The notes beneath the pieces are model-generated. The model was not told where the DNA came from. It did no database searches and worked only from the letters and a program-made list of their open reading frames with translations. Positions 12,817-23,960 of a DNA stretch of 33,959 nt are shown one piece after another. The position numbers and the translations under genes were made by a program. This stretch comes from Phytoactinopolyspora halotolerans (GTDB taxonomy: Bacteria; Actinomycetota; Actinomycetes; Jiangellales; Jiangellaceae), in the NCBI RefSeq assembly GCF_010550675.1, contig NZ_JAAGOA010000021.1:98796-132754 (forward strand). The letters are read 5' to 3'. How positions within the stretch are numbered: the stretch's first letter is position 1; the number at the start of each line of letters is the position of its first letter.

Positions 12817-14039
12817 CGGGGCCGAGAGTGGCGGATCGCCCCAGCGGCGATCTGGCCGTCGTCAACGCACTGGTCTTTGACGGCGTGTCGGACCGCCTGG
12901 AGGAGGCGGACGTCCGCATCGCGGATGGTGTCATCCGTGAGGTAGGGGCGTCCGGCGTGAGCAAGGCGGAACGCGTCGTCGACGCCCGCGGGCGCACGCT
13001 GATCCCCGGCATGATCGACGCGCACTTCCACGCGTACGCGTCCGCGATGGGTGGCCTGGAGCTGGAGACCCGGCCGCTCAGCTACGTCAGCCTGATGGCC
13101 TCAGCCCGGCTCGGTGGCGCGCTGAACCGTGGGTTCACGACCGTCCGGGATGTGGCCGGCGGCGACATCGGGCTGGCCCGTGCGATCGAGGAGGGACTGC
13201 TGGCCGCGCCGCGCTACCTCTACACCGGCCCGGCGTTGAGCCAGACCGGCGGCCACGGCGATCCGCGCTCGCCCGACGTGGACGTCTGCTTCGGCCACGG
13301 GCACATGAACGAGATCGTCGACGGCGTCGACGCGGTGCGCCGGGCCGTCCGCGAGCGGTTCCGGACCGGCGCCCATGCGATCAAGATCATGGCGTCGGGT
13401 GGCGTCATCTCGCTGACCGACCCGATCCGGGTGCCGCAGTTCTCCGCCGAGGAGGTCGCAGCCGCTGCCGACGAATCCACCCGGCGGGGCAGCTACGTGG
13501 CGGCGCACGCCTACTCGGCCGAGGCGATCGTGCACTCGGTGACCAACGGCGTGCGCTCGATCGAGCACGGCAACCTGCTCGACGCCGACGCCGCCCGGCT
13601 GATGGCCGAGCATTCCGCCTTCTTGGTGCCGACCCTGGCGACCTACGACGCGATGAACCGGCGCGGCGACGACGTGAACCTGCATCCGGTGTCCCGGGCG
13701 AAGAATGCCGAGGTGCTGACGGCCGGGCAGCGCGCCATCGAGATCGCGCGCGCAGCCGGGGTGCGGATCGGGTTCGGTACCGATCTGATGGGGCCGCTGG
13801 CCGATGAGCAGTTGCACGGCATCCGACTCCAGCTGGAGGTGGAGCCGGTACTCGACGTCCTGCGCTCGCTGACATCGGTCAACGCTGACCTGCTGAATCG
13901 AGATGACCTCGGCCGAATCGCGGAAGGCTGCGCCGGGGACCTGGTCCTGTTGGACGGCGACCCGACCGCGGACCCTGCCGTGCTCTGGGACGAGACCCGG
14001 CCCCGCACCGTCATCCAAGCCGGATCCATCATCCCATGA
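12813..14039 (+). CDS. COG1228-type metal-dependent amidohydrolase (prolidase-like)
   Basis: A 408-aa member of the amidohydrolase superfamily, imidazolonepropionase/prolidase-like branch. All expected binuclear-metal ligands are visible: His71 and His73 (DAHFH), Lys191 as the likely carboxylated lysine (AIKIMASGG), His232 (AAHAYS), His252 (IEHGN) and Asp324 (GFGTD). COG1228 includes enzymes characterised as Xaa-Pro dipeptidases and other carboxypeptidase-like peptidases, as well as imidazolonepropionases, so the family alone does not fix the substrate. The ATG at 12813 overlaps the hyuB stop. In this operon, cleavage of a dipeptide opened by HyuAB is an attractive guess. The stop codon lies inside a palindromic repeat element (14033-14090). 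Confidence 0.85.
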   Translation: MTGPRVADRPSGDLAVVNALVFDGVSDRLEEADVRIADGVIREVGASGVSKAERVVDARGRTLIPGMIDAHFHAYASAMGGLELETRPLSYVSLMASARLGGALNRGFTTVRDVAGGDIGLARAIEEGLLAAPRYLYTGPALSQTGGHGDPRSPDVDVCFGHGHMNEIVDGVDAVRRAVRERFRTGAHAIKIMASGGVISLTDPIRVPQFSAEEVAAAADESTRRGSYVAAHAYSAEAIVHSVTNGVRSIEHGNLLDADAARLMAEHSAFLVPTLATYDAMNRRGDDVNLHPVSRAKNAEVLTAGQRAIEIARAAGVRIGFGTDLMGPLADEQLHGIRLQLEVEPVLDVLRSLTSVNADLLNRDDLGRIAEGCAGDLVLLDGDPTADPAVLWDETRPRTVIQAGSIIP

Positions 14040-14090
14040 TCATGAACACTAACCCGTGTTATGTGAACGGCTAGTGTTCATGATCATGGG
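14033..14090. repeat. Palindromic repeat element, copy 1
   Basis: A 58-base element with 19-bp perfect arms (14033-14051 and 14072-14090). The terminal CCCATGATCATGAACA is identical to that of copy 2 at 20040-20096. Its 26-base centre matches the reverse complement of the copy-2 centre at about 20 of 25 positions, so the two are the same element in opposite orientation. It lies between convergent genes, supplies the TGA stop of the amidohydrolase, and may act as a bidirectional terminator there. Confidence 0.85.
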
Positions 14091-14092
14091 GG

Positions 14093-14764
14093 TCAGTTCT
14101 CGGTGCGGCCGGCCCACCAGCCGAGGATGTGGCCGATGTGCTGGTGCATCAGCGCCTCGGCGTCGTCGGCCCGGCCCTCGACGAGCAGATCCAGCAGGGC
14201 GTGGTGTTCTTGGGCGGAGTGTTTGAGCTCGACCGTGTTCTTCATGTCAGCCAGCCCCACGAGTCGAGTCTGGCGGCGCAGATCGGCGACGATGTCGACC
14301 AGCCGGCCGTTCCTGGTGAGCTCCATGAGCGCGAGGTGAAAGTCGGTGTCGGCGGCGAGGTACTCAGGGAAGTCCGCCGCGGCGGCCGCCGTCACGATCC
14401 GATCGGCCAGCTCCCGGTAGTGGTCGATCCGGTCGGCCGGGAAGCTGCGTGCGACGATGCCGATCGCCGGCACCTCCAGCCACCGGCGTACCTGTACCAC
14501 CTGTCGCAGGTCATCCTCGCCGACGTGGGTCACCCGGAATCCCTTGTTCCGGACCGGCTCCACGAAACCGCGCTTCTCCAGATCGAGCATGGCCTCCCGG
14601 ACGGGTGTCGCGGAGACCGCGAACTGTGCCGCGAGCGTCGGGACCGAGACTAGCGCCCCGGGCTCGAGCTCGCCGGAGACGATCGCGGCGGATAGGGCGC
14701 GCTCCACCTCCGCACGCAGGCTCGAGGCGTGCTTGATTCGTCGGATGGACGACGGTTGACTCAC
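14093..14764 (-). CDS. GntR-family (FCD subfamily) transcriptional regulator
   Basis: A 223-aa regulator. The N-terminal winged helix reads about ALSAAIVSGELEPGALVSVPTLAAQFAVSATPVREAMLDLEKRGFV (residues 24-68), with the GntR pattern SxTPVREAL-like helix. The C-terminal all-alpha FCD ligand domain has the usual metal/ligand residues in DTDFHLALMELTRN and in the later HH and H segments. The start is the GTG at 14764, with GAGGAG six to seven bases before it; an ATG start is not available. It is convergent with the amidohydrolase. The operator word in its own promoter also occurs twice in the divergent catabolic promoter, so it probably controls both catabolic operons and itself. Its inducer is unknown. 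Confidence 0.92.
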   Translation of the reverse strand: MSQPSSIRRIKHASSLRAEVERALSAAIVSGELEPGALVSVPTLAAQFAVSATPVREAMLDLEKRGFVEPVRNKGFRVTHVGEDDLRQVVQVRRWLEVPAIGIVARSFPADRIDHYRELADRIVTAAAAADFPEYLAADTDFHLALMELTRNGRLVDIVADLRRQTRLVGLADMKNTVELKHSAQEHHALLDLLVEGRADDAEALMHQHIGHILGWWAGRTEN

Positions 14765-14848
14765 CGCACGCTCCTCGAGTCTCGACGGCCGGGACCTGAG
14801 AGTCTGCCCGGAGTATCCAGCGGCGCCGTCTTCACCGGATACCACAAG

Positions 14849-14865
14849 TAGTATATGCCATATTA
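14849..14865 (-). promoter_or_regulatory. GntR gene promoter and operator
   Basis: On the minus strand TAATATGGCA (14865-14856) runs directly into a -10-like TATACT (14854-14849). The operator word matches TAATATGTCA in the divergent promoter at 8857-8866 and 8946-8955 at nine of ten positions. Overlap with the -10 suggests autorepression. No good -35 box is visible. Confidence 0.55.
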
Positions 14866-14935
14866 CTATGGCGCTTGGCCTGTATGGCGGAGTACCGTCA
14901 AAGATAAGCACGGCTCCCGTGAAGCGGTGAGGCTT

Positions 14936-15382
14936 ATGCAGGCCTGGATCGTGTGGTTGATCATCGCAGGGGCGCTCGGCACCGCTGAGCTCTTGACCGC
15001 CACACTCGACCTCCTGCTGCTCGCCTGCGCTGCCCTGGTGGCGGCTGGAGTGGCTGCGGTGGGCCTGGGACTCGGCTTCCAGCTGCTCGCCTTCGCCGCC
15101 GCTGCCACGGTGATGCTCGCGGTCGTGCGCCCGATTGCGCGCCGGCACCTCACCAGCGCGCCGGTCGTACAGTCCGGCACCGCCGCGCTCGTCGGCCGCG
15201 AGGCCGAAGTGCTGGTCGAGGTGAGCAAGAACTCGGGGCTGGTCCGGATCGGCGGCGAGGAATGGACGGCACGCGCCTACGACCCGCACCGCACCATTCC
15301 CGTGGGAGCCACCGTGGATGTGTTCGCCATCGAGGGCGCGACCGCGCTCGTCCATCCCCAGGAGGACCCATGGCCGAGTTGA
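14936..15382 (+). CDS. NfeD-like membrane protein
   Basis: A 148-aa short NfeD protein. It has two hydrophobic stretches near residues 5-25 and 28-65 (WIVWLIIAGALGTAELL; LLLLACAALVAAGVAAVGLG), then an OB-fold domain (GREAEVLVEV, GLVRIGGEEWTARA, IPVGATVDVFAIEGATALV). Short NfeD proteins partner with SPFH/stomatin-like proteins, and such a gene follows here with a 13-base overlap. The ATG at 14936 is preceded by GTGAGG; an in-frame upstream extension lacks membrane-protein character. The role in membrane microdomain or membrane-protein quality control is family knowledge, not seen here. Confidence 0.88.
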   Translation: MQAWIVWLIIAGALGTAELLTATLDLLLLACAALVAAGVAAVGLGLGFQLLAFAAAATVMLAVVRPIARRHLTSAPVVQSGTAALVGREAEVLVEVSKNSGLVRIGGEEWTARAYDPHRTIPVGATVDVFAIEGATALVHPQEDPWPS

Positions 15383-16353
15383 TCGTCGGTCTTGTCGTTG
15401 CGCTGCTCGCCGTGGTGCTGGTGGTACGGACGGTTCGTATCGTCCCGCAGGCCAGGGCCAGCAACGTCGAGCGGCTGGGCCGCTACCTCCGCACCTTGGA
15501 GCCCGGCCTCAACGTGGTGATTCCGTTCATCGACCGGCCGCGGCCGCTGATCGACCTGCGGGAGCAGGTGGTGTCGTTCGAGCCGCGCGCCGTGATCACC
15601 GAGGATAACCTCGTCGTCAACATCGACACAGTGCTGTACTTCCAGGTGACCGACCCGAAGGCGGCGGCCTATGAGATCGCCGACTACATCCAGGCGATCG
15701 AGCAGCTCACCGTCACCACGCTGCGGAATGTCATCGGCAGCATGGACCTGGAGAAGACGTTGACCTCGCGCGAGCACATCAACTCCACACTCCGTGTGGT
15801 GCTCGACGAGGCGTCAGGCAAGTGGGGCATCCGCGTCAACCGCGTCGAGCTCAAGGCGATCGATCCGCCGCCGTCGATCAAGGACTCGATGGAGAAGCAG
15901 ATGCGCGCCGAGCGGGAGAAGCGCGCCGCCATCCTCACCGCCGAAGGCGCTCGGCAGTCGCGCATCCTGACAGCCGAGGGCGACAAGCAGGCGGCGATCC
16001 TCCGCGCCGACGGGCAGGCCAAGGCGATCGACACCGTCTTCGGAGCCATCCACCGCAACGACCCGGACCCGAAGCTGCTGGCGTATCAGTACCTGCAGGT
16101 TCTTCCGGAGCTGGCCAAAGGTGAGGGGAACACGTTCTGGGTCATCCCCAGCGAGGTCACCACCGCGCTGCAGAGCGTGTCCAAGGCATTCACGGACAAG
16201 GGCGACAGCGGCTCGGGAGAGAACGCCGACGCCTCCAACCTCGGCGGCCGCGCTGGTGAGCCGGCGCCGACGGCCGCGCCTGAGCCAGAGCCGCCGACGC
16301 TGACGGAGACGCAGCGGCTCGAGCAGCCCGGCGCGTCCGGCAACGGTGCCTGA
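15370..16353 (+). CDS. SPFH/band-7 domain protein (stomatin-like)
   Basis: A 327-aa protein with one N-terminal membrane helix (ELIVGLVVALLAVVLVVRTV) and then an SPFH domain (ERLGRYLRTLEPGLNVVIPFID, DLREQVVSF, TEDNLVVNIDTVLYFQV). A charged coiled-coil region (about residues 170-225) contains repeats of the EKRAAILTAEGARQS type. The last 50 residues are Pro/Glu/Ala rich and probably disordered. The ATG at 15370 has an AGGAGG four bases upstream and lies inside the end of the NfeD gene. NfeD/SPFH pairs are thought to organise membrane microdomains. Confidence 0.92.
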   Translation: MAELIVGLVVALLAVVLVVRTVRIVPQARASNVERLGRYLRTLEPGLNVVIPFIDRPRPLIDLREQVVSFEPRAVITEDNLVVNIDTVLYFQVTDPKAAAYEIADYIQAIEQLTVTTLRNVIGSMDLEKTLTSREHINSTLRVVLDEASGKWGIRVNRVELKAIDPPPSIKDSMEKQMRAEREKRAAILTAEGARQSRILTAEGDKQAAILRADGQAKAIDTVFGAIHRNDPDPKLLAYQYLQVLPELAKGEGNTFWVIPSEVTTALQSVSKAFTDKGDSGSGENADASNLGGRAGEPAPTAAPEPEPPTLTETQRLEQPGASGNGA

Positions 16354-16458
16354 CGCGGTGGCCAGAACGTCACCTGTCGCCGCGGTCGGCGCCCCCAGCA
16401 GCAAGTGAAGCGGACACGCGCCGGCCACGTGCCGGACACACCCGCGACCGGCTGTGAC

Positions 16459-16495
16459 CAGGCCGTCCTCCGCTGGTAGGGCGGAGGACGGCCTG
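16459..16495. terminator. Bidirectional terminator hairpin
   Basis: A perfect 15-bp GC-rich stem (CAGGCCGTCCTCCGC at 16459-16473, complement at 16481-16495) with a 7-base loop lies between the convergent SPFH and formaldehyde dehydrogenase genes. No T-run follows on either strand, as is common in actinobacteria. Position and strength support termination from both sides. I see nothing else in 16354-16524. Confidence 0.8.
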
Positions 16496-16524
16496 ACCGG
16501 CGTTGCTGACGCTGCGCGCCGCGA

Positions 16525-17742
16525 TCAGCGCTGGATCATGCCATGCGGATCCAGCACATACTTGTGCGCGGCGCCGCGGTCGAAGTCCGAGTAGCCTTGC
16601 GGCGCCTCGGCCAGCGGCAGGACCGTGGCGTTCACGTTCTTCGCGATGTTCACCCGGTCATGCAGGATCGCCATCATCAGCTGCCGGTTGTAGCGCATCA
16701 CCGGGCACTGTCCGGTGGTGAAGGCCAGCGACTTCGCCCAGCCGAGCCCGAACTCCAGCGACAACGAGCCGTGTTTGGCCGCCTCGTCGGCCGCGCCCGG
16801 ATCTCCGGTCACGTACAGCCCGGGGATGCCGACCTTGCCGCCGGCGCGGGTGACGCCCATCACCGTGTTCAGCACTGTCGCCGGGCGTTCTTCCTGAGCG
16901 TTGTCGCCGTGGCCGCGGGCCTCGAAGCCGACGGCGTCGACCGCGCAGTCCACCACCGGGATGCCGAGCAATTGCTCGATCTGGTCCGCCGGCTCGCCCT
17001 TGGAGACGTCGATGGTCTCGCAGCCGAAGCTGCGCGCCTGCTCCAGCCGCTCGGTGTTGAGATCTGCGACGATGACGACGGCCGCGCCGAGCAGGAACGC
17101 CGACGTGGCCGCGGCAAGTCCGACGGGTCCGGCACCGGCGATGTACACGGTCGAACCGGGCTCGACACCCGCGGTCACCGCGCCGTGGAAGCCGGTCGGG
17201 AAGATATCCGACAGCATCGCCAGGTCGACGATCTTCGCCATCGCCTGATCGCGGTCGGGGAAGCGCAGCAGATTCCAGTCCGCATACGGCACCATCGCGT
17301 ACTCGGCCTGGCCGCCCACCCAGCCGCCCATGTCGACGTAGCCGTAGGCGGATCCCGGCCGGTCCGGGTTGACGTTCAGGCAGATACCGGTCTTGCCCTC
17401 CTTACAGTTGCGACACCGCCCGCAGGCGATGTTGAACGGCACCGACACCAGGTCGCCGGTCTTGATGTACTCGACATCGCGGCCGGTCTCGACGACCTCG
17501 CCGGTGATCTCGTGGCCGAGCGCGAGTCCCTCCGGGGCGGTGGTGCGGCCACGGACCATGTGCTGATCGCTGCCGCAGATGTTGGTCGCGACGACCTTGA
17601 GGATGGCGCCGTGCGGCAGCTGGCGTCCCACGTTGTCCGGATTGACTCCCGGACCGTCCTTCAGCTCGAACGTCGGGTAGTCGACATCCTCTACCTCGAC
17701 ATGGCCGGGACCTCGATAGATGACTGCTCTGTTTGCAGGCAC
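16525..17742 (-). CDS. fdhA: Formaldehyde dehydrogenase, glutathione-independent (zinc MDR)
   Basis: A 405-aa zinc-dependent medium-chain dehydrogenase closely resembling the tightly NAD-bound formaldehyde dehydrogenase (dismutase) type. Catalytic-zinc residues include Cys56 (NICGSDQH) and His77-Glu78 (GHE). The structural-zinc cysteines are 107, 110, 113 and 121 (CGRCRNC, then GIC). The NAD site reads YIAGAGPVGLAAA. The insertion VDMGGWVGGQAEYAMVPYADWNL is typical of this subfamily. I choose the GTG at 17742 (protein starts PANRAVIYRGPG) because GGAGAGGAG lies seven bases upstream of it; an ATG at 17760 has no ribosome site. It detoxifies formaldehyde or related aldehydes in the cytosol and stands as a single-gene unit. 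Confidence 0.9.
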   Translation of the reverse strand: MPANRAVIYRGPGHVEVEDVDYPTFELKDGPGVNPDNVGRQLPHGAILKVVATNICGSDQHMVRGRTTAPEGLALGHEITGEVVETGRDVEYIKTGDLVSVPFNIACGRCRNCKEGKTGICLNVNPDRPGSAYGYVDMGGWVGGQAEYAMVPYADWNLLRFPDRDQAMAKIVDLAMLSDIFPTGFHGAVTAGVEPGSTVYIAGAGPVGLAAATSAFLLGAAVVIVADLNTERLEQARSFGCETIDVSKGEPADQIEQLLGIPVVDCAVDAVGFEARGHGDNAQEERPATVLNTVMGVTRAGGKVGIPGLYVTGDPGAADEAAKHGSLSLEFGLGWAKSLAFTTGQCPVMRYNRQLMMAILHDRVNIAKNVNATVLPLAEAPQGYSDFDRGAAHKYVLDPHGMIQR

Positions 17743-17844
17743 AGCGATGCTCCTCTCCATTGAACGGCTGCGTGCCCGTGCGGTGGGACTTGGGGTGGGG
17801 TGGGGTCGTGGTTCGGCCCGAGGGTTGAGGCGATCCGCTACGCA

Positions 17845-17876
17845 CCACCTCCTTGCGGATGCAAGAGCGGAGGTGG
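17845..17876 (-). other. Hairpin pairing a strong Shine-Dalgarno-like sequence
   Basis: CCACCTCC (17845-17852) and GGAGGTGG (17869-17876) form an 8-bp stem, and TTGC/GCAA (17853-17856/17861-17864) form an inner 4-bp stem with a GGAT loop. Read on the minus strand, AAGGAGGTGG is an excellent ribosome site held in the hairpin about 105 bases upstream of the formaldehyde dehydrogenase start. A GTG follows at once but opens a frame with no recognisable product. It may be a leader structure or chance. Confidence 0.4.
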
Positions 17877-18100
17877 CCGTTGTCGTCTGCGGATGCGTGA
17901 TGCCGCGGCAGTGATCCAGTCAGTGCGGACCCTGCCCGGAGGCGACGTCGTCATCGCGGGCCCTGCCCTGCTTAGGCCTCGAGGGGGTGGAAGAGGTCCC
18001 ATCGTGGAACTTCTTCGACGTTATGTCCGCTGGGTACGGCCGTCAATCGGGTGGTGCTGAACGATCTGTTAAGAACGCGCCGGCTCCCGTGCCGTCATGT

Positions 18101-18166
18101 GCCCACCACCGGACGGCCGGGCGCCCACCACCGGATGGTTACGTGCCCACCACCGGATGGTCACGT
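18101..18166. repeat. Three tandem 22-base repeats
   Basis: Units at 18101-18122, 18123-18144 and 18145-18166 all begin GCCCACCACCGGA. Units 2 and 3 differ at one base; unit 1 is more diverged in its second half, and a degenerate fourth unit follows. There are no spacers, so this is a minisatellite and not CRISPR. It lies upstream of bioY. Confidence 0.85.
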
Positions 18167-18391
18167 CCCAACCGCCGGTCGTTTGTGGAAGCCCGCCAAC
18201 CTTGAGCGCGCCGCGCTGGTGCGTATCACCGCTGCGTTCGCGCCCGCGTTCCGTCATCGTGTGAATGTGGGCGTTGCGTTTCCGAGCGCGACGGCTGCGG
18301 TGAGCGCCCCGTGCGCGAGGAGCGGCGAGCCGTCGGACAACGAGGTCGGCAGGCTTCATGACTCTGACCGACCGATCTGGAGGAGACGCCG

Positions 18392-19009
18392 ATGACCCCG
18401 TCTGACCCCCGCATGTCTCGGCCGCGGCGACGGTTGCCCGCCGCGGACATGGCCAGGATCGCCGTGTTCGCCGCGTTGATCGCGGTGCTCGGACTGCCGG
18501 GCCAGTTTCACGTCTTCGGAAACTCGGTGCCGATCACGCTGCAGACGCTGGGGGTTGTGCTGGCGGGTGCGATCCTCGGAGCGTGGCGCGGTGCGCTCAG
18601 TGTGCTGATGCTGCTGGCCCTGGTCGCGGCCGGGTTGCCGCTGCTGGCCGGTGGCCGCGGCGGTCTCGGCGTGTTCGCCGGTCCGTCCGTCGGATACCTG
18701 GTGGGCTGGGTCGTGGGTGCGCTCGTCGTCGGATGGCTGGTGGAACGTGGCGGCCGCCGTCCGGGGGTGGCCTGGGTGCTGCCGGCGTGCCTGATCGGAT
18801 CGGCGCTGATCCTGGTGATCGGCGTGCCGATCCAGTCGCTGGTGACCGGCGTCCCGCTGGGCGAGACGATCGCGCTGTCGCTGGCCTTCGTGCCCGGGGA
18901 CACGCTGAAGTCCGTCGCCGCGGCCGCTGTCGTCGTCGGCGCGCAGCGGGCTTACCCGGACGCGTCGCCGGCGGCCCGTCGCGAACGGCTGTCGAACCGG
19001 GGAGGTTGA
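18392..19009 (+). CDS. bioY: Biotin transporter S component BioY
   Basis: A 205-aa integral membrane protein of the BioY family, the substrate-binding (S) component of biotin ECF importers. Family blocks are GNSVPITLQTLGVVLAGAILGAWRGALSVLMLL, a central GGLGVFAGPSVGYLVGW and the C-terminal FVPGDTLKSVAAAAV. About six membrane segments are visible. The ATG at 18392 has GGAGGAG seven bases upstream. It heads an operon with an acyl ligase, a thiolase-like protein and an EcfT protein. Family is certain; biotin as the substrate is the family expectation. Confidence 0.95.
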   Translation: MTPSDPRMSRPRRRLPAADMARIAVFAALIAVLGLPGQFHVFGNSVPITLQTLGVVLAGAILGAWRGALSVLMLLALVAAGLPLLAGGRGGLGVFAGPSVGYLVGWVVGALVVGWLVERGGRRPGVAWVLPACLIGSALILVIGVPIQSLVTGVPLGETIALSLAFVPGDTLKSVAAAAVVVGAQRAYPDASPAARRERLSNRGG

Positions 19010-19010
19010 C

Positions 19011-20522
19011 GTGCCGGTTGCCGCACACGTCCGTGCGCACGCCATGGCTCGGCCGCATCGGCCGGCCCTGCGATCGCCGCACGGTGTCTGCACGTATGGC
19101 GAGCTCGCCGCGGAGATCGACGTCGCGGCGGGGAGACTGTGGCGGCGCGGTGCGCGACCGGGCGAGCTGGTCGCGGTCGACGCCGCCGAGCCGGGTGAGA
19201 TGCTGACCACCATGCTGGCCGTGGACACCGTCGGTGCGATCCCACTGGTCTGTGATCCGGCATGGTCCGCGGAGCAGCGGGGCGCCGTGCTGGAGACCGT
19301 CGCTCCTGACCACCATGTGCGAGAGCTGCCGAGGGAGGACGCGGAGTCGGCGGCGGGTGCGGCGTTCCCGCATCGATGGGAACCACGGCCACACGATCTG
19401 GCCTGGGCGGGGTTCAGCTCGGGTAGCACCGGACGGCCACGCGCCATCGTGCGCACCCGGGCCTCGTGGACCGGTTCGTATGCCGCGGCGGAGAAGCTCA
19501 GCGGGTTGAGCGAGACGGACACCGTCCTGGTTCCCGGTCCGTTGGTGTCGTCCCTGTTCTGCTTCGCCGTGCTGCACGGGCTGGCGGTGGGGGCCGAGGT
19601 GGTGGTCACCGGGCGGTGGAGCCCACGGGCCGTGCGCGAACTCCTGCCCGGCGTGGACGTGGTGCATGCCGTGCCGCACATGCTGGAGGCGATGCTGCCG
19701 TGGCTGCAGGAGCGTGCGCGGCCGCGGGTCGCCATGGTCAGTGGTGCCGCGCTGGCGTCGGGCCTGCGCGAGCGTGCGGGAGCGGTGGGGCTCGACGTGA
19801 TCGCCTACTACGGGGCCGTCGAGCTCTCCTTTGTGGCGGTGGATGCCGACGGTTCCGGTCTCCGCCCGTTCGATCAGGTGGAGATCGAACTCCGTCCTGC
19901 CGGCGACGACGCGGCGTTGGGTGAGGTGTGGGTCCGGTCGCCGTGGATGGCCGAGGGTTACCTGGCCGGCGCCACCGGCCCGTTCCGGCGAGACGGCGCC
20001 GGCTGGGCGACCGTCGGAGACCTCGCCGAACGCCCCCCGCCCATGATCATGAACAGTAACCGTTCATATAGCACGGTAAGTGTTCATGATCATGGGCGGT
20101 TGCGGCTGCGTGGGCGCGGTGACGGCGCGATCTTGACCGGCGGTGCGACCGTCGTCCCGGAGGATGTGGAGGCGGTGCTGGCCGCCGTACCTGGAGTTCG
20201 GGGCGCGGTTGTGGTCGGGACGCCGCACGAGCACCTCGGTGCCGTCGTCACGGCCCTGATCGAGATCGACGACGCGCGGCCGGTCGGCAGCACCGCGGAC
20301 GACGACGGGCGGCAAGCCGGCAGCAGCATCGACGACGAGCCGCCGCCGGTCACCAGGGCGACGCTGGAAGCGGTGGCCCGCCGCGAGCTGACGACCGCTC
20401 AGCGCCCGCGCCGCTGGTTCGCCGTCGAGCGGATTCCACGCACCGCCATCGGCAAGCCGGCTCGTGCGGCGATCAGCGCCGGCGTGGTCTCTGGGACACT
20501 CGACGTCAGGCCGTTGAGATGA
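19011..20522 (+). CDS. AMP-forming acyl ligase (ANL superfamily) with in-frame repeat insertion
   Basis: A 503-aa adenylate-forming enzyme. The phosphate loop SSGSTGRPR is at about residues 135-143, YYGAVE at about 266-271, the GD of motif A7 at about 335 (WATVGDLAE), GRGDGAIL just after the insertion, and the C-terminal lysine block IPRTAIGKPARAAI. It should activate a carboxylate as acyl-AMP/acyl-CoA. Residues 344-362 are encoded by a 57-base palindromic repeat and interrupt the A7-A8 hairpin; without them the sequence would read as a normal family member. The GTG at 19011 lies one base after the bioY stop, with GGGGAGG upstream. Bacillus subtilis has a similar bioY-linked trio (yhfTSU); the natural substrate is unknown. 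Confidence 0.85.
   Translation: MPVAAHVRAHAMARPHRPALRSPHGVCTYGELAAEIDVAAGRLWRRGARPGELVAVDAAEPGEMLTTMLAVDTVGAIPLVCDPAWSAEQRGAVLETVAPDHHVRELPREDAESAAGAAFPHRWEPRPHDLAWAGFSSGSTGRPRAIVRTRASWTGSYAAAEKLSGLSETDTVLVPGPLVSSLFCFAVLHGLAVGAEVVVTGRWSPRAVRELLPGVDVVHAVPHMLEAMLPWLQERARPRVAMVSGAALASGLRERAGAVGLDVIAYYGAVELSFVAVDADGSGLRPFDQVEIELRPAGDDAALGEVWVRSPWMAEGYLAGATGPFRRDGAGWATVGDLAERPPPMIMNSNRSYSTVSVHDHGRLRLRGRGDGAILTGGATVVPEDVEAVLAAVPGVRGAVVVGTPHEHLGAVVTALIEIDDARPVGSTADDDGRQAGSSIDDEPPPVTRATLEAVARRELTTAQRPRRWFAVERIPRTAIGKPARAAISAGVVSGTLDVRPLR
20037..20099. repeat. Palindromic repeat element, copy 2, inside a coding sequence
   Basis: The core element is 20040-20096 (57 bases). Arms of 19 perfect bases at 20037-20055 and 20081-20099 include the CCCATGATCATGAACA terminus shared with copy 1. 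An inner stem ACCGT/ACGGT (20059-20063/20073-20077) extends the hairpin. The core length is a multiple of three, and the reading frame continues through it without a stop, adding 19 residues to the acyl ligase. Confidence 0.9.
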
Positions 20523-20543
20523 ACGTGACCGTGCGCTTCCCGA

Positions 20544-20587
20544 CGAGCATGCTTTTCGGTCGTGATCGTGACCACTATGCATGCTCG
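20544..20587. repeat. Inverted repeat between ligase and thiolase genes
   Basis: CGAGCATGC (20544-20552) and GCATGCTCG (20579-20587) form a 9-bp stem around a 26-base loop, which itself contains a GGTC/GACC pair. It lies in the 97-base gap between two genes of the bioY operon. Its arms differ from the CCCATGATCATG family. It may be a terminator, processing site or unrelated repeat. Confidence 0.5.
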
Positions 20588-20619
20588 ATCGTGGGTGACC
20601 GTCCGGGACGTGTGCCGCG

Positions 20620-21774
20620 GTGACGGCCGCCGTCGTCGTCGCGGCGCGACGCACGCCCGTCGGTACGGCGGGTCGCGCGCTGGGTGTGGTCACCGTCGAC
20701 CGGTTGGCCGCTCACGTGCTGCGCGCCGTGGCGGACGACATCGGCGAACGCGCCGCGGCCCCGGTCGACGATGTGGTGCTGGGCAACTGCATGGGACCCG
20801 GCGGGAACATCGCCCGGGTGAGCGCGCTCGCCGCCGGGTTGGGCGAGGAGGTCCCGGGTGTCACCGTCGACCGGCAATGCGGAAGCGGACTGGCCGCCGT
20901 CGTGCAGGCCGCACAAGCCGTGGTGTCCGGCGATGCGCGACTGGTGCTCGCCGGAGGCGCGGAGAGCGCCTCCACCGCGCCGATCCGCGCGCACCGCTCG
21001 CTCGAGGGTGCGGGCGAGCCGGTCCCGTATGCCCGGGCGCCGTTCACCCCGGCGGAGTTCGGCGACCCGGAGATGGGCGAGGCCGCGGAGGCGCTGGCGG
21101 CGGCGCGCCACGTGTCCCGAGACCGGCAGGACGCCTACGCCGCGGCGAGCCACGCCAGGGCGCTGGCGGCGCAGCGGGCCGGCCGGTTCGATGCGGAGCT
21201 GGTGCCGCTGACCGAGCTCGGCGCCGACGACCGCCCACGGGCGCTGCGGGAGTCGGTGTTGGCGAGGATGCCTGCTGCCTTCGTGCCCGGCGGCACGGTC
21301 ACCGCGGGCAACTCGTGCCCGGTGAGCGACGGTGCGGCGGCGGTGGGCGTCGTCGCCGATGAGCTGCGCGAAGGTCGGCCCGGGCTGCGGGTCGTCGCCG
21401 GGGCGACAGTGGGCTGCGATCCGCGGCTGCCCGGGTGGGGGCCCGTTCCGGCGGTGCAGCGCGTCCTCCACCAAGCCGGGGCGAAAATGGACGACGTGGC
21501 CGTCGTCGAGATCGTGGAGGCGTTCGCCGGGCAGGTACTGGCCGTGACCGACGCGCTCGGGCTGGACCCGCTCGGCGGCGATGCGGCCAGGGTCTGCCCG
21601 GACGGCGGCGCGATCGCGCTGGGGCACCCGTGGGGTGCGACCGGCGCCGTCTGCGTCGTCCGCCTGTTCAGCCGGTTGGTACGCGGCGGCGCGCCGGCCG
21701 GGACGCTGGGACTGGCCACCGCGGCCGTCGGCGGCGGGATGGGCGTGGCCGCCCTCGTCGAAGTGGTGCGCTGA
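20620..21774 (+). CDS. Thiolase-family protein with altered active site
   Basis: A 384-aa thiolase-fold protein. The nucleophile Cys87 (DRQCGSG) and His336 (GGAIALGHPWGATGA) are present. The usual NEAFA motif reads VEAFA (Asn replaced by Val299), and the usual CxGGGxG motif reads AVGGGMG (catalytic Cys replaced by Ala369). So a normal Claisen thiolase reaction is doubtful. The GTG at 20620 fits the family N-terminus (VVVAARRTPVG); the ribosome site is weak. It sits between the ligase and EcfT genes. B. subtilis yhfS is the analogous bioY-linked thiolase. Its role may be acyl transfer or a synthase step linked to biotin or biotin-precursor acyl groups; this is inference. Confidence 0.85.
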   Translation: MTAAVVVAARRTPVGTAGRALGVVTVDRLAAHVLRAVADDIGERAAAPVDDVVLGNCMGPGGNIARVSALAAGLGEEVPGVTVDRQCGSGLAAVVQAAQAVVSGDARLVLAGGAESASTAPIRAHRSLEGAGEPVPYARAPFTPAEFGDPEMGEAAEALAAARHVSRDRQDAYAAASHARALAAQRAGRFDAELVPLTELGADDRPRALRESVLARMPAAFVPGGTVTAGNSCPVSDGAAAVGVVADELREGRPGLRVVAGATVGCDPRLPGWGPVPAVQRVLHQAGAKMDDVAVVEIVEAFAGQVLAVTDALGLDPLGGDAARVCPDGGAIALGHPWGATGAVCVVRLFSRLVRGGAPAGTLGLATAAVGGGMGVAALVEVVR

Positions 21775-23136: not shown

Positions 23137-23892
23137 GTGCATATCGCGAGGCTTGGGCTGACGCCGGTGAAAGGGATGGCACACACCCCGCTGGAGCGTC
23201 TGGACGTGAACGCCGACGGGCCGCCGTACGACCGGGTGTTCTGCCTGGTCGAGGCGGACACCGGGCGGGTGCTCCGTACGGTGGAGAACGACCTGCTCAT
23301 GGCCTGCCATGCGGCATGGGAACCGCCGGTGCTCACCATCCGCACGCCGGTGGGCGAGGCCACCGGGGAGGTGGTCGACGGGGCCGCGATGACCGGCTTC
23401 TACTGGGAGCGCGAGATCAAGCTGGTCACCGCCGACGGGCCGTGGTCGCCGCTGCTGAGCGAGTACGTCCGGCGTCCCGTCGTGCTGTGTCGCGTCCCGG
23501 ACCCCGGCGCGGTGGTATGGGCGGGATCCGTTTCGGTCGTGTCCACGTCGTCGCTGGTGGAACTGGCTCGCCGGCTCGGCCGGCCACACGACGACGGCGC
23601 CCGCTTCCGCCCGACCGTCGTGGTCGACACCGGCGACGCACCGCCGTTCATCGAGGACACCTGGGTGGGTTCGCGGCTGCGGCTCGGCTCGGCCGTGGTC
23701 ACCGTCGACGAGCGGCTGCCGCGGTGCGCCGTCGTGAACGCGCTGCCGGCGGCGGGCGGCCGGGACGCCGCGGTGCTCAAGGCGCTGGCCGGTGATCGGC
23801 TCGAAGGCACGGACATCTTCTTCGGCGTCAGCGGCGATGTGGACCGGCCCGGCCGGCTCGTCACCGGTGACCCGGTCCGCCTACTCCCGTGA
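23137..23892 (+). CDS. MOSC-domain protein (YcbX-like N-terminal barrel)
   Basis: A 251-aa protein with an N-terminal MOSC beta-barrel (ARLGLTPVKGMAHTPLERLDVNADGPPYDRVFCLVE) and a MOSC core. The core includes RFRPTVVVDT, the DTWVGSRLRLGSAVVTV block, and RLPRCAVVNA, whose cysteine is the likely molybdenum-cofactor-sulfur site. The C-terminal part reads FFGVSGDVDRPGRLVTGDPV. Such proteins carry sulfur for molybdenum cofactor chemistry or reduce N-hydroxylated compounds. The GTG start at 23137 is set by the -10 box seven bases upstream, which indicates a leaderless mRNA. The stop codon lies at the edge of a palindromic repeat. Confidence 0.85.
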   Translation: MHIARLGLTPVKGMAHTPLERLDVNADGPPYDRVFCLVEADTGRVLRTVENDLLMACHAAWEPPVLTIRTPVGEATGEVVDGAAMTGFYWEREIKLVTADGPWSPLLSEYVRRPVVLCRVPDPGAVVWAGSVSVVSTSSLVELARRLGRPHDDGARFRPTVVVDTGDAPPFIEDTWVGSRLRLGSAVVTVDERLPRCAVVNALPAAGGRDAAVLKALAGDRLEGTDIFFGVSGDVDRPGRLVTGDPVRLLP

Positions 23893-23945
23893 TCGTCAAC
23901 AGGTAGAACGGTCATAGCACGGCACGGCCCACGGTTGACGATCAC
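23889..23945. repeat. Palindromic repeat, diverged copy 3
   Basis: GTGATCGTCAAC (23889-23900) and its complement (23934-23945) form a 12-bp stem. The 33-base centre contains CGGTCATAGCACGG, close to CGTTCATATAGCACGG in copy 2, and the arms keep the GATC-based plan. The TGA stop of the MOSC gene lies inside the left arm. It may terminate that transcript. The relation to copies 1 and 2 is suggestive, not proven. Confidence 0.6.
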
Positions 23946-23960
23946 CGCGTGTGCCGGGGC

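Follow-up and report, generated by a model that had tools for sequence, protein, structure and literature searches.

We find that the stretch of DNA analysed here (the window; 33,959 nt, NCBI RefSeq assembly GCF_010550675.1, contig NZ_JAAGOA010000021.1, positions 98,796-132,754 of the forward strand) carries a 57-base palindrome lodged in frame inside a gene for an AMP-forming acyl-CoA ligase, and that this palindrome probably is one member of a hairpin element of 57 or 58 bases dispersed across the Jiangellaceae, which would have entered the gene by non-autonomous, MITE-like insertion. The window comes from Phytoactinopolyspora halotolerans, a member of this family of free-living or endophytic bacteria. 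Taken as a whole, the observations are likely to be best explained by a MITE-like hairpin element that sits mostly at gene ends and whose in-frame copies survive inside proteins. A gene running into such an element at its 3' end would gain only a short tail, from the element's quick stops, and entry in the open frame would add a 19-residue peptide, 57 bases being 19 codons; an in-frame copy would survive where the loop or linker that receives it is tolerant.

The preliminary description placed the palindrome in frame within the acyl-ligase gene, at residues 344-362, and this is borne out, as the open reading frame crosses the element without a stop codon and these residues read PMIMNSNRSYSTVSVHDHG (Table 1). 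The ligase copy consists of CCCATGATCATGAACA, 25 bases and TGTTCATGATCATGGG, and its extended hairpin, as RNA, folds with a predicted energy of -43.3 kcal/mol (z -11.9). Our own gene model starts the ligase at 19044, within the open reading frame that begins at 19011. Matches to the AMP-binding (8-318) and AMP-binding_C (386-482) domains flank the insert, which occupies a variable turn, flanked by the motifs GDLA and LRGRGDG, that immediately precedes the C-terminal domain and lies between what we take to be the motifs named A7 and A8. Alignment with the malonyl-CoA synthetase 4FUQ matches ligase residues from 358 onward to IDERGYVHILGRGKDLVITGG, so that the insert lies within the turn before that strand, which presumably has a role near the domain hinge. 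An AlphaFold2 model of the ligase alone had a mean pLDDT of 35 and was not used. We infer that the 19-residue peptide is made and tolerated.

Table 1. Features in the window, with positions counted from its first base, and copies of the element inside predicted genes of three genomes (G002, Phytoactinopolyspora endophytica EGI 60009).
Feature	Position	Strand	Basis or remark
57-base palindromic element, ligase residues 344-362, in frame	20040..20096	+	sequence, ORF translation, covariance model
Full hairpin stem of the ligase copy, with three more paired bases per side	20037..20099	.	RNA folding
AMP-forming acyl-CoA ligase / adenylating enzyme with insertion, 503 aa	19011..20522	+	ORF, domain matches
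Copy 1, 58 bases, between convergent genes	14033..14090	.	sequence, gene calls, covariance model
Gene with stop codon supplied by copy 1	12828..14039	+	gene calls
Diverged third copy, arms TGATCGTCAACA / GGTTGACGATCA	23882..23952	.	21.3 bits, E 2.5e-4
Window genome: AMP-forming ligase			internal
Window genome: glycoside-hydrolase-like protein			assigned by eye; no Pfam/NCBIfam match at 1e-3
Window genome: GlcE-like protein			NCBIfam GlcE 160 bits, under cut-off of 284
Window genome: cobaltochelatase-like protein			C-terminal tail; 741 bits, under cut-off of 779
G002: ligase
G002: GlcE-like protein
G002: biotin carboxylase/carboxyltransferase protein			between CT_A_B (482-756) and CT_C_D (804-1021)
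G002: NUDIX protein			C-terminal tail
G005: ligase
G005: GlcE-like protein
G005: ABC ATPase			before ATPase domain; membrane domain match weak
G005: nitrite/sulphite-reductase-like protein
G005: LysR regulator			within substrate domain
G005: PaaD-like protein			between FeS_assembly_P (15-84) and zinc ribbon (152-197)

The window holds two further copies. Copy 1, whose length of 58 bases had been given correctly, provides from its own TGA the end of the upstream gene at 14039. Both main copies match a covariance model of the element with E about 1e-21, each being among the 16 sequences from which that model was built. The diverged third copy sits at the 3' end of the gene at 23176-23892 and is the sole match to the arm type TGATCGTCAACA in the loci examined, which were picked for the main type. 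A class of low-scoring matches in G002 (29-49 bits) may be a second subfamily. An Rfam scan of bases 13500-21500 gives a single match over the element, of 26.6 bits against a gathering threshold of 93. ARAGORN calls a 95-base tRNA-Arg (ccg) at 18726-18820, inside the open reading frame 18392-19009, which is probably a false call.

Exact 16-base half sites of the element occur 63 and 57 times in the window genome, as compared to none for a reversed control pattern, and the family is therefore not a product of chance. Such half sites are found in 6 of 13 Jiangellaceae genomes searched and in none of eight genomes of other families, the sole scan for spread outside the family. The covariance model, with at most 150 strand matches scored per genome, finds matches with E of 0.001 or better in 20 of the 22 family genomes, those in genus g3 being weaker (best E 1e-7 to 1e-12). 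We fetched and classified 253 copies from four genomes of 5.0-7.6 Mb, comprising 107 from the window genome, 40 from its congener G002, 92 from G005 and 14 from G003; these are a subset chosen by similarity, and the conservation of their arms is therefore partly a matter of choice. Arms with all 13 bases exact make up 190 of 214 (window genome), 66 of 80 (G002), 51 of 184 (G005) and 25 of 28 (G003). The consensus starts CCCATGATCATG, and the 19 residues encoded read roughly P-M-I-M-N-(T/S)-N-R-...-S-V-H-D-H-(G/R).

Copies of 57 bases predominate (223, with 29 of 58 bases and one of 55), and in the window genome they make up 100 of 107, the other seven being 58 bases long. The suggestion that the ligase copy had been altered by one base to give a multiple of three is thus reversed: 57 bases is the norm, and the 58-base copy 1 is the odd one. 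In G003 all 14 copies are 58 bases long, and the majority are nearly the same in sequence and form almost perfect hairpins, as recent amplification might leave them. Inner-stem pairing (positions 17-24) is 0.845 in the window genome, 0.878 in G002 and 0.762 in G005, against maxima of 0.802, 0.840 and 0.687, respectively, in 300 shuffles of halves, and copies inside genes are paired to much the same extent as the rest (21-27 of 28 vs. means of 22.7-23.3). Of the 57 stem positions that differ at sites shared by the window genome and G002, 16 are double changes that keep the pair, and 41 lack pairing in at least one of the two copies; stem pairing is favoured but not absolute. Pairing of the flanks beyond the 57 bases is about that expected by chance in the window genome and G002, and above shuffles in G005. 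Leave-one-out subtype scoring assigns 88 of 100 copies of the window genome, 27 of 36 of G002 and 79 of 81 of G005 to their own genome; such genome-specific subtypes fit amplification within lineages.

The reading frames of the element are strongly asymmetric. Across 217 copies of 57 bases (late-added copies and all 58-base copies being left out of this count), frame 0 can be read through on at least one strand in 99 of 100 from the window genome, 35 of 36 from G002 and 77 of 81 from G005; the remaining six have no open frame, and no frame other than 0 is ever open. The other two frames close fast, with TGA at base 7 and TAA at base 20. In-frame copies inside predicted genes number 14 of 253, all of 57 bases and all in frame 0: four of 107 in the window genome, four of 40 in G002, six of 92 in G005 and none of 14 in G003, whose 58-base copies are not frame-neutral, although 14 copies are too few for a conclusion. 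Twelve of these 14, in eight different proteins, are internal and flanked on either side by domains or homologous sequence, and two form C-terminal tails (Table 1). The phenomenon is thus wider than first noted, both within the window genome and over the four genomes.

Orthologues were compared for four of the eight insert-bearing proteins, and we find an empty orthologue for each. In the ligase, for which the alignment takes in 15 of 19 genomes with a match, the window genome included, no more than a short loop stands in place of the insert in 12 of the 14 other orthologues, and the extra residues of the remaining two, G002 and G005, are the element itself, in the same loop and in frame. The insert in the glycoside-hydrolase-like protein is confined to the window genome, giving a net gain of 18 residues over seven of seven empty orthologues in a loop whose length does not otherwise vary (alignment of 8 of 13 matches). 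That in the sulphite-reductase-like protein is confined to G005, with six of six others lacking the element (7 of 9 genomes aligned). Other long insertions, by eye unlike the element, occupy the same loop in G002 and G011, and the loop therefore seems generally tolerant. The GlcE-like protein carries the insert in the window genome, G002 and G005 and lacks it in G001, G003 and G009 (8 of 20 genomes aligned); the loop of G024 is filled by an unrelated stretch of 18 residues, the G011 alignment is too poor to count, and G004 has no match.

The ligase and the GlcE-like protein thus share the insert loop between lineages, and whether each loop was entered once or more than once depends in part on the trees. 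The window genome and G002 are sisters with support of 98-100 in the ligase, glycoside-hydrolase-like and concatenated trees. In the ligase and concatenated trees G005 branches outside G002, G004 and the window genome, but the glycoside-hydrolase-like tree places it with G001 (78); the tree of the sulphite-reductase-like protein gives no resolution. Support for the split parting G005 from G001 and G003 is 55/60 in the concatenated tree. Two insertions, or a single insertion followed by loss in G004, explain the ligase equally simply; a single insertion is enough for the GlcE-like protein, provided that the window genome is more closely related to G005 than it is to G001 and G003. The two shared loops speak for descent, and the subtypes for renewal or independent insertion.

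That the same-loop inserts arose independently, each loop being a hot spot or tolerating inserts unusually well, has in our judgment close to an even chance. All six G005 in-gene copies are of the G005 subtype, the flanks of the inserts differ between lineages, the loop varies in length among insert-free orthologues, and the unrelated stretch in the GlcE-like loop of G024 is of the same tenor; against this, two coincidences among few insertions demand a strong preference for site or loop, no target motif is established, and no target duplication is found. That each loop instead records one ancient insertion, later homogenised within each genome, is a credible reading, though we lean against it. 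Two of eight proteins carrying the insert in the same loop in both lineages is unlikely at random, and the window genome and G002 have exact junctions in common in both the ligase and the GlcE-like protein, with ligase copies 92% identical in the inner 25 bases. The distinct subtype of the G005 copies weighs against ancient insertion, as do the extra residues on both sides of its two shared copies, its GlcE-like copy, which is near the genome consensus, pairs at 27 of 28 positions and so looks recent, and the loss in G004 that the ligase tree requires. Among the eight in-gene copies of the window genome and G002, five score with their own genome and three with the sister, the two subtypes overlapping.

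Otherwise the element keeps away from the interior of genes and is found at their 3' ends. Of the 253 copies, 14 (5.5%) are inside a gene and 136 (54%) straddle a gene edge, whereas 57-base intervals drawn at random from the same loci are inside a gene 83-85% of the time and straddle an edge 8-9% of the time. Gene calls around the copies come from our own codon model rather than from standard annotation, and the in-gene class demands an open frame; insertions that break a gene would therefore count as gene ends, and gene-truncating insertions may be hidden among the gene-end copies. A gene 3' end lies within the copy or at most 30 bases away for 187 of 253 copies, and 28 copies take in the ends of both members of a convergent gene pair. 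Gene 3' ends within copies number 152: base 7, the TGA of CCATGATC, accounts for 99 and base 20 for 38, with 15 at other positions. Random frames would make the base-7 and base-20 classes equal; the excess of the earlier stop suggests either that selection favours the shortest possible tail or that insertion occurs in register with the stop codon.

This placement is the main argument for a different account, in which the primary role of the element is that of a functional hairpin of gene 3' ends carrying its own stops, as a transcript end, mRNA 3' stabiliser or protein-binding site, and in-gene copies are accidental by-products. We regard this as tentative and somewhat doubtful as the primary role, though it is compatible with the MITE-like explanation. 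The arms match at 512 of 520 positions over 20 sites common to the window genome and G002, the flanks being about 68-93% identical, but the arms of randomly paired copies agree equally (0.981), so that it is the family that is conserved and not the site. The hairpin is not a canonical intrinsic terminator, since a T-run usually does not follow it: the 12 bases after the stem mostly contain zero to three T, with two or fewer in 127 of 206 (window genome), 35 of 64 (G002) and 134 of 164 (G005) flanks.

As for mobility, the element has the traits of a MITE in its terminal inverted repeats, its shortness, the absence of a coded transposase and its copy number of at least 107 in the window genome, and we infer movement, past or present, by copying. 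No transposition event is seen among the available relatives, which are distant, the best ligase identity being 77% over trimmed columns. We find no Y1 transposase in any of 22 Jiangellaceae genomes, with a control search positive in 5 of 14 known genomes, and a RAYT-mobilised REP is not supported on this ground. There is no excess of direct repeats of 2-5 bases that would mark a target-site duplication, with boundaries shifted from -4 to +4 and a threshold of at least twice the expected count plus 4. Seven solo half-sites occur in about 1.46 Mb of loci, no two of them in one locus, and the loci read contain no longer autonomous version. Scans of viral contigs, with a gap of 25-26 bases, and of plasmid and phage collections give no match.

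The sites common to the window genome and G002 (20 from 27 candidates) have an inner identity of 0.740 vs. 0.667 for random pairs, a value reached by one of 2000 random sets of 20; in another run none exceeded 0.760. To judge from these sequences, shared sites keep some but little history of their own. Six of the 20 fit better with one centre flipped, compared with 0.498 for random pairs, and orientation is therefore mostly kept; inversion, considered as a source of flipped centres, is not proved.

The codon positions of the host genes speak to their maintenance. Between the window genome and G002, ligase codon positions 1, 2 and 3 differ at 91, 67 and 201 of 481 codons (19, 14 and 42%), those of the GlcE-like gene at 55, 48 and 154 of 335, and those of the glycoside-hydrolase-like gene at 116, 86 and 309 of 718, counts that take in part of the ORF 5' extensions and are uncorrected for saturation; insert-free gene pairs have a similar profile. 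The pattern in the ligase is that of a maintained gene and, together with the uninterrupted reading frame, argues against a pseudogene, one of two refuting conditions that the preliminary description had itself set; the other, occurrence of the residues in close homologues free of the repeat, is likewise not borne out by the ligase alignment. That the insert residues are an old part of the ligase resembling the repeat by chance, or belong to a decaying pseudogene, is extremely improbable and finds no support, given the insert-free orthologues, the normal codon-position constraint and a DNA sequence that is a near-consensus copy of so large a family.

The behaviour of the element has known counterparts. 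According to the available portions of the sources, Rickettsia palindromic elements (RPE) are dispersed palindromes that lie in ORFs of unrelated proteins without loss of frame and encode a conserved peptide, and orthologues carry the same group at similar sites (PMC3767692, PMC10969869, PMC2229807); they are 100-150 bp long (PMC3767692), and an RPE-bearing guanylate kinase is described as translated and active with changed substrate affinity (PMC2229807). The likeness to RPE that had been proposed holds for behaviour, since the Jiangellaceae element, like chiefly RPE-1, -2 and -3, is in frame in unrelated genes with a conserved predicted peptide, but not for length, at 57/58 bp. Compared by description rather than by sequence, it differs further in residing in an actinobacterial family rather than in obligate intracellular alphaproteobacteria, and in lying chiefly at gene 3' ends, where it supplies stops. 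In-frame repeats in genes are also described, in the parts available, for Wolbachia palindromic elements and for the coding palindromes of Methanocaldococcus jannaschii (PMC4224334, PMC2996958), which share this placement, again by description only, and belong to other phyla.

Short non-autonomous repeats fused in frame to genes are likewise reported, in the accessible text of PMC2229807, for the bacterial MITEs NEMIS/Correia (107 bp), ERIC and YAPL. The Jiangellaceae element resembles these in both respects and differs in having only 57/58 bases, no target duplication found and no Y1 transposase, the only type searched for. REP elements, given as 20-40 bp with GTAG or CGTC tags in the available part of PMC3733652, are, like REPINs, short, numerous, palindromic and mostly extragenic, as is the present element; unlike them, it has a consensus starting CCCATGATCATG, and no Y1 transposase is found in the 22 family genomes. 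The impression that such coding palindromes had gone undescribed for actinobacteria holds in the open literature, most subscription papers aside, where none is found among the matches listed for Jiangella, Phytoactinopolyspora or actinobacteria, and in the available portion of the Jiangella gansuensis genome paper CRISPR is the only context in which palindromes are mentioned. As a phenomenon this is already known, and what is new is a variant in a new lineage. On our best reading this is an endemic MITE-like hairpin element that behaves like RPE and is not assigned to them.

The available papers treat coding palindromes mainly from intracellular alphaproteobacteria, one archaeon and some MITEs, and drift in reduced genomes could explain their tolerance. 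Inserts in eight proteins of genomes of the size surveyed here suggest that the process needs no reduced-genome conditions. More speculatively, and on balance unlikely in our view, the design of the element may suit it both to gene capping, through its two quick-stop frames, and to lodging in proteins, as an open 19-codon spacer, with a translated palindrome renewed in place in two genera by conversion or repeated insertion. With several species, empty orthologues and lineage-specific subtypes at hand, insertion, loss and renewal become directly testable in the Jiangellaceae, and the placement at gene ends raises the question of whether a mobile hairpin has turned into the stop signal of many genes.
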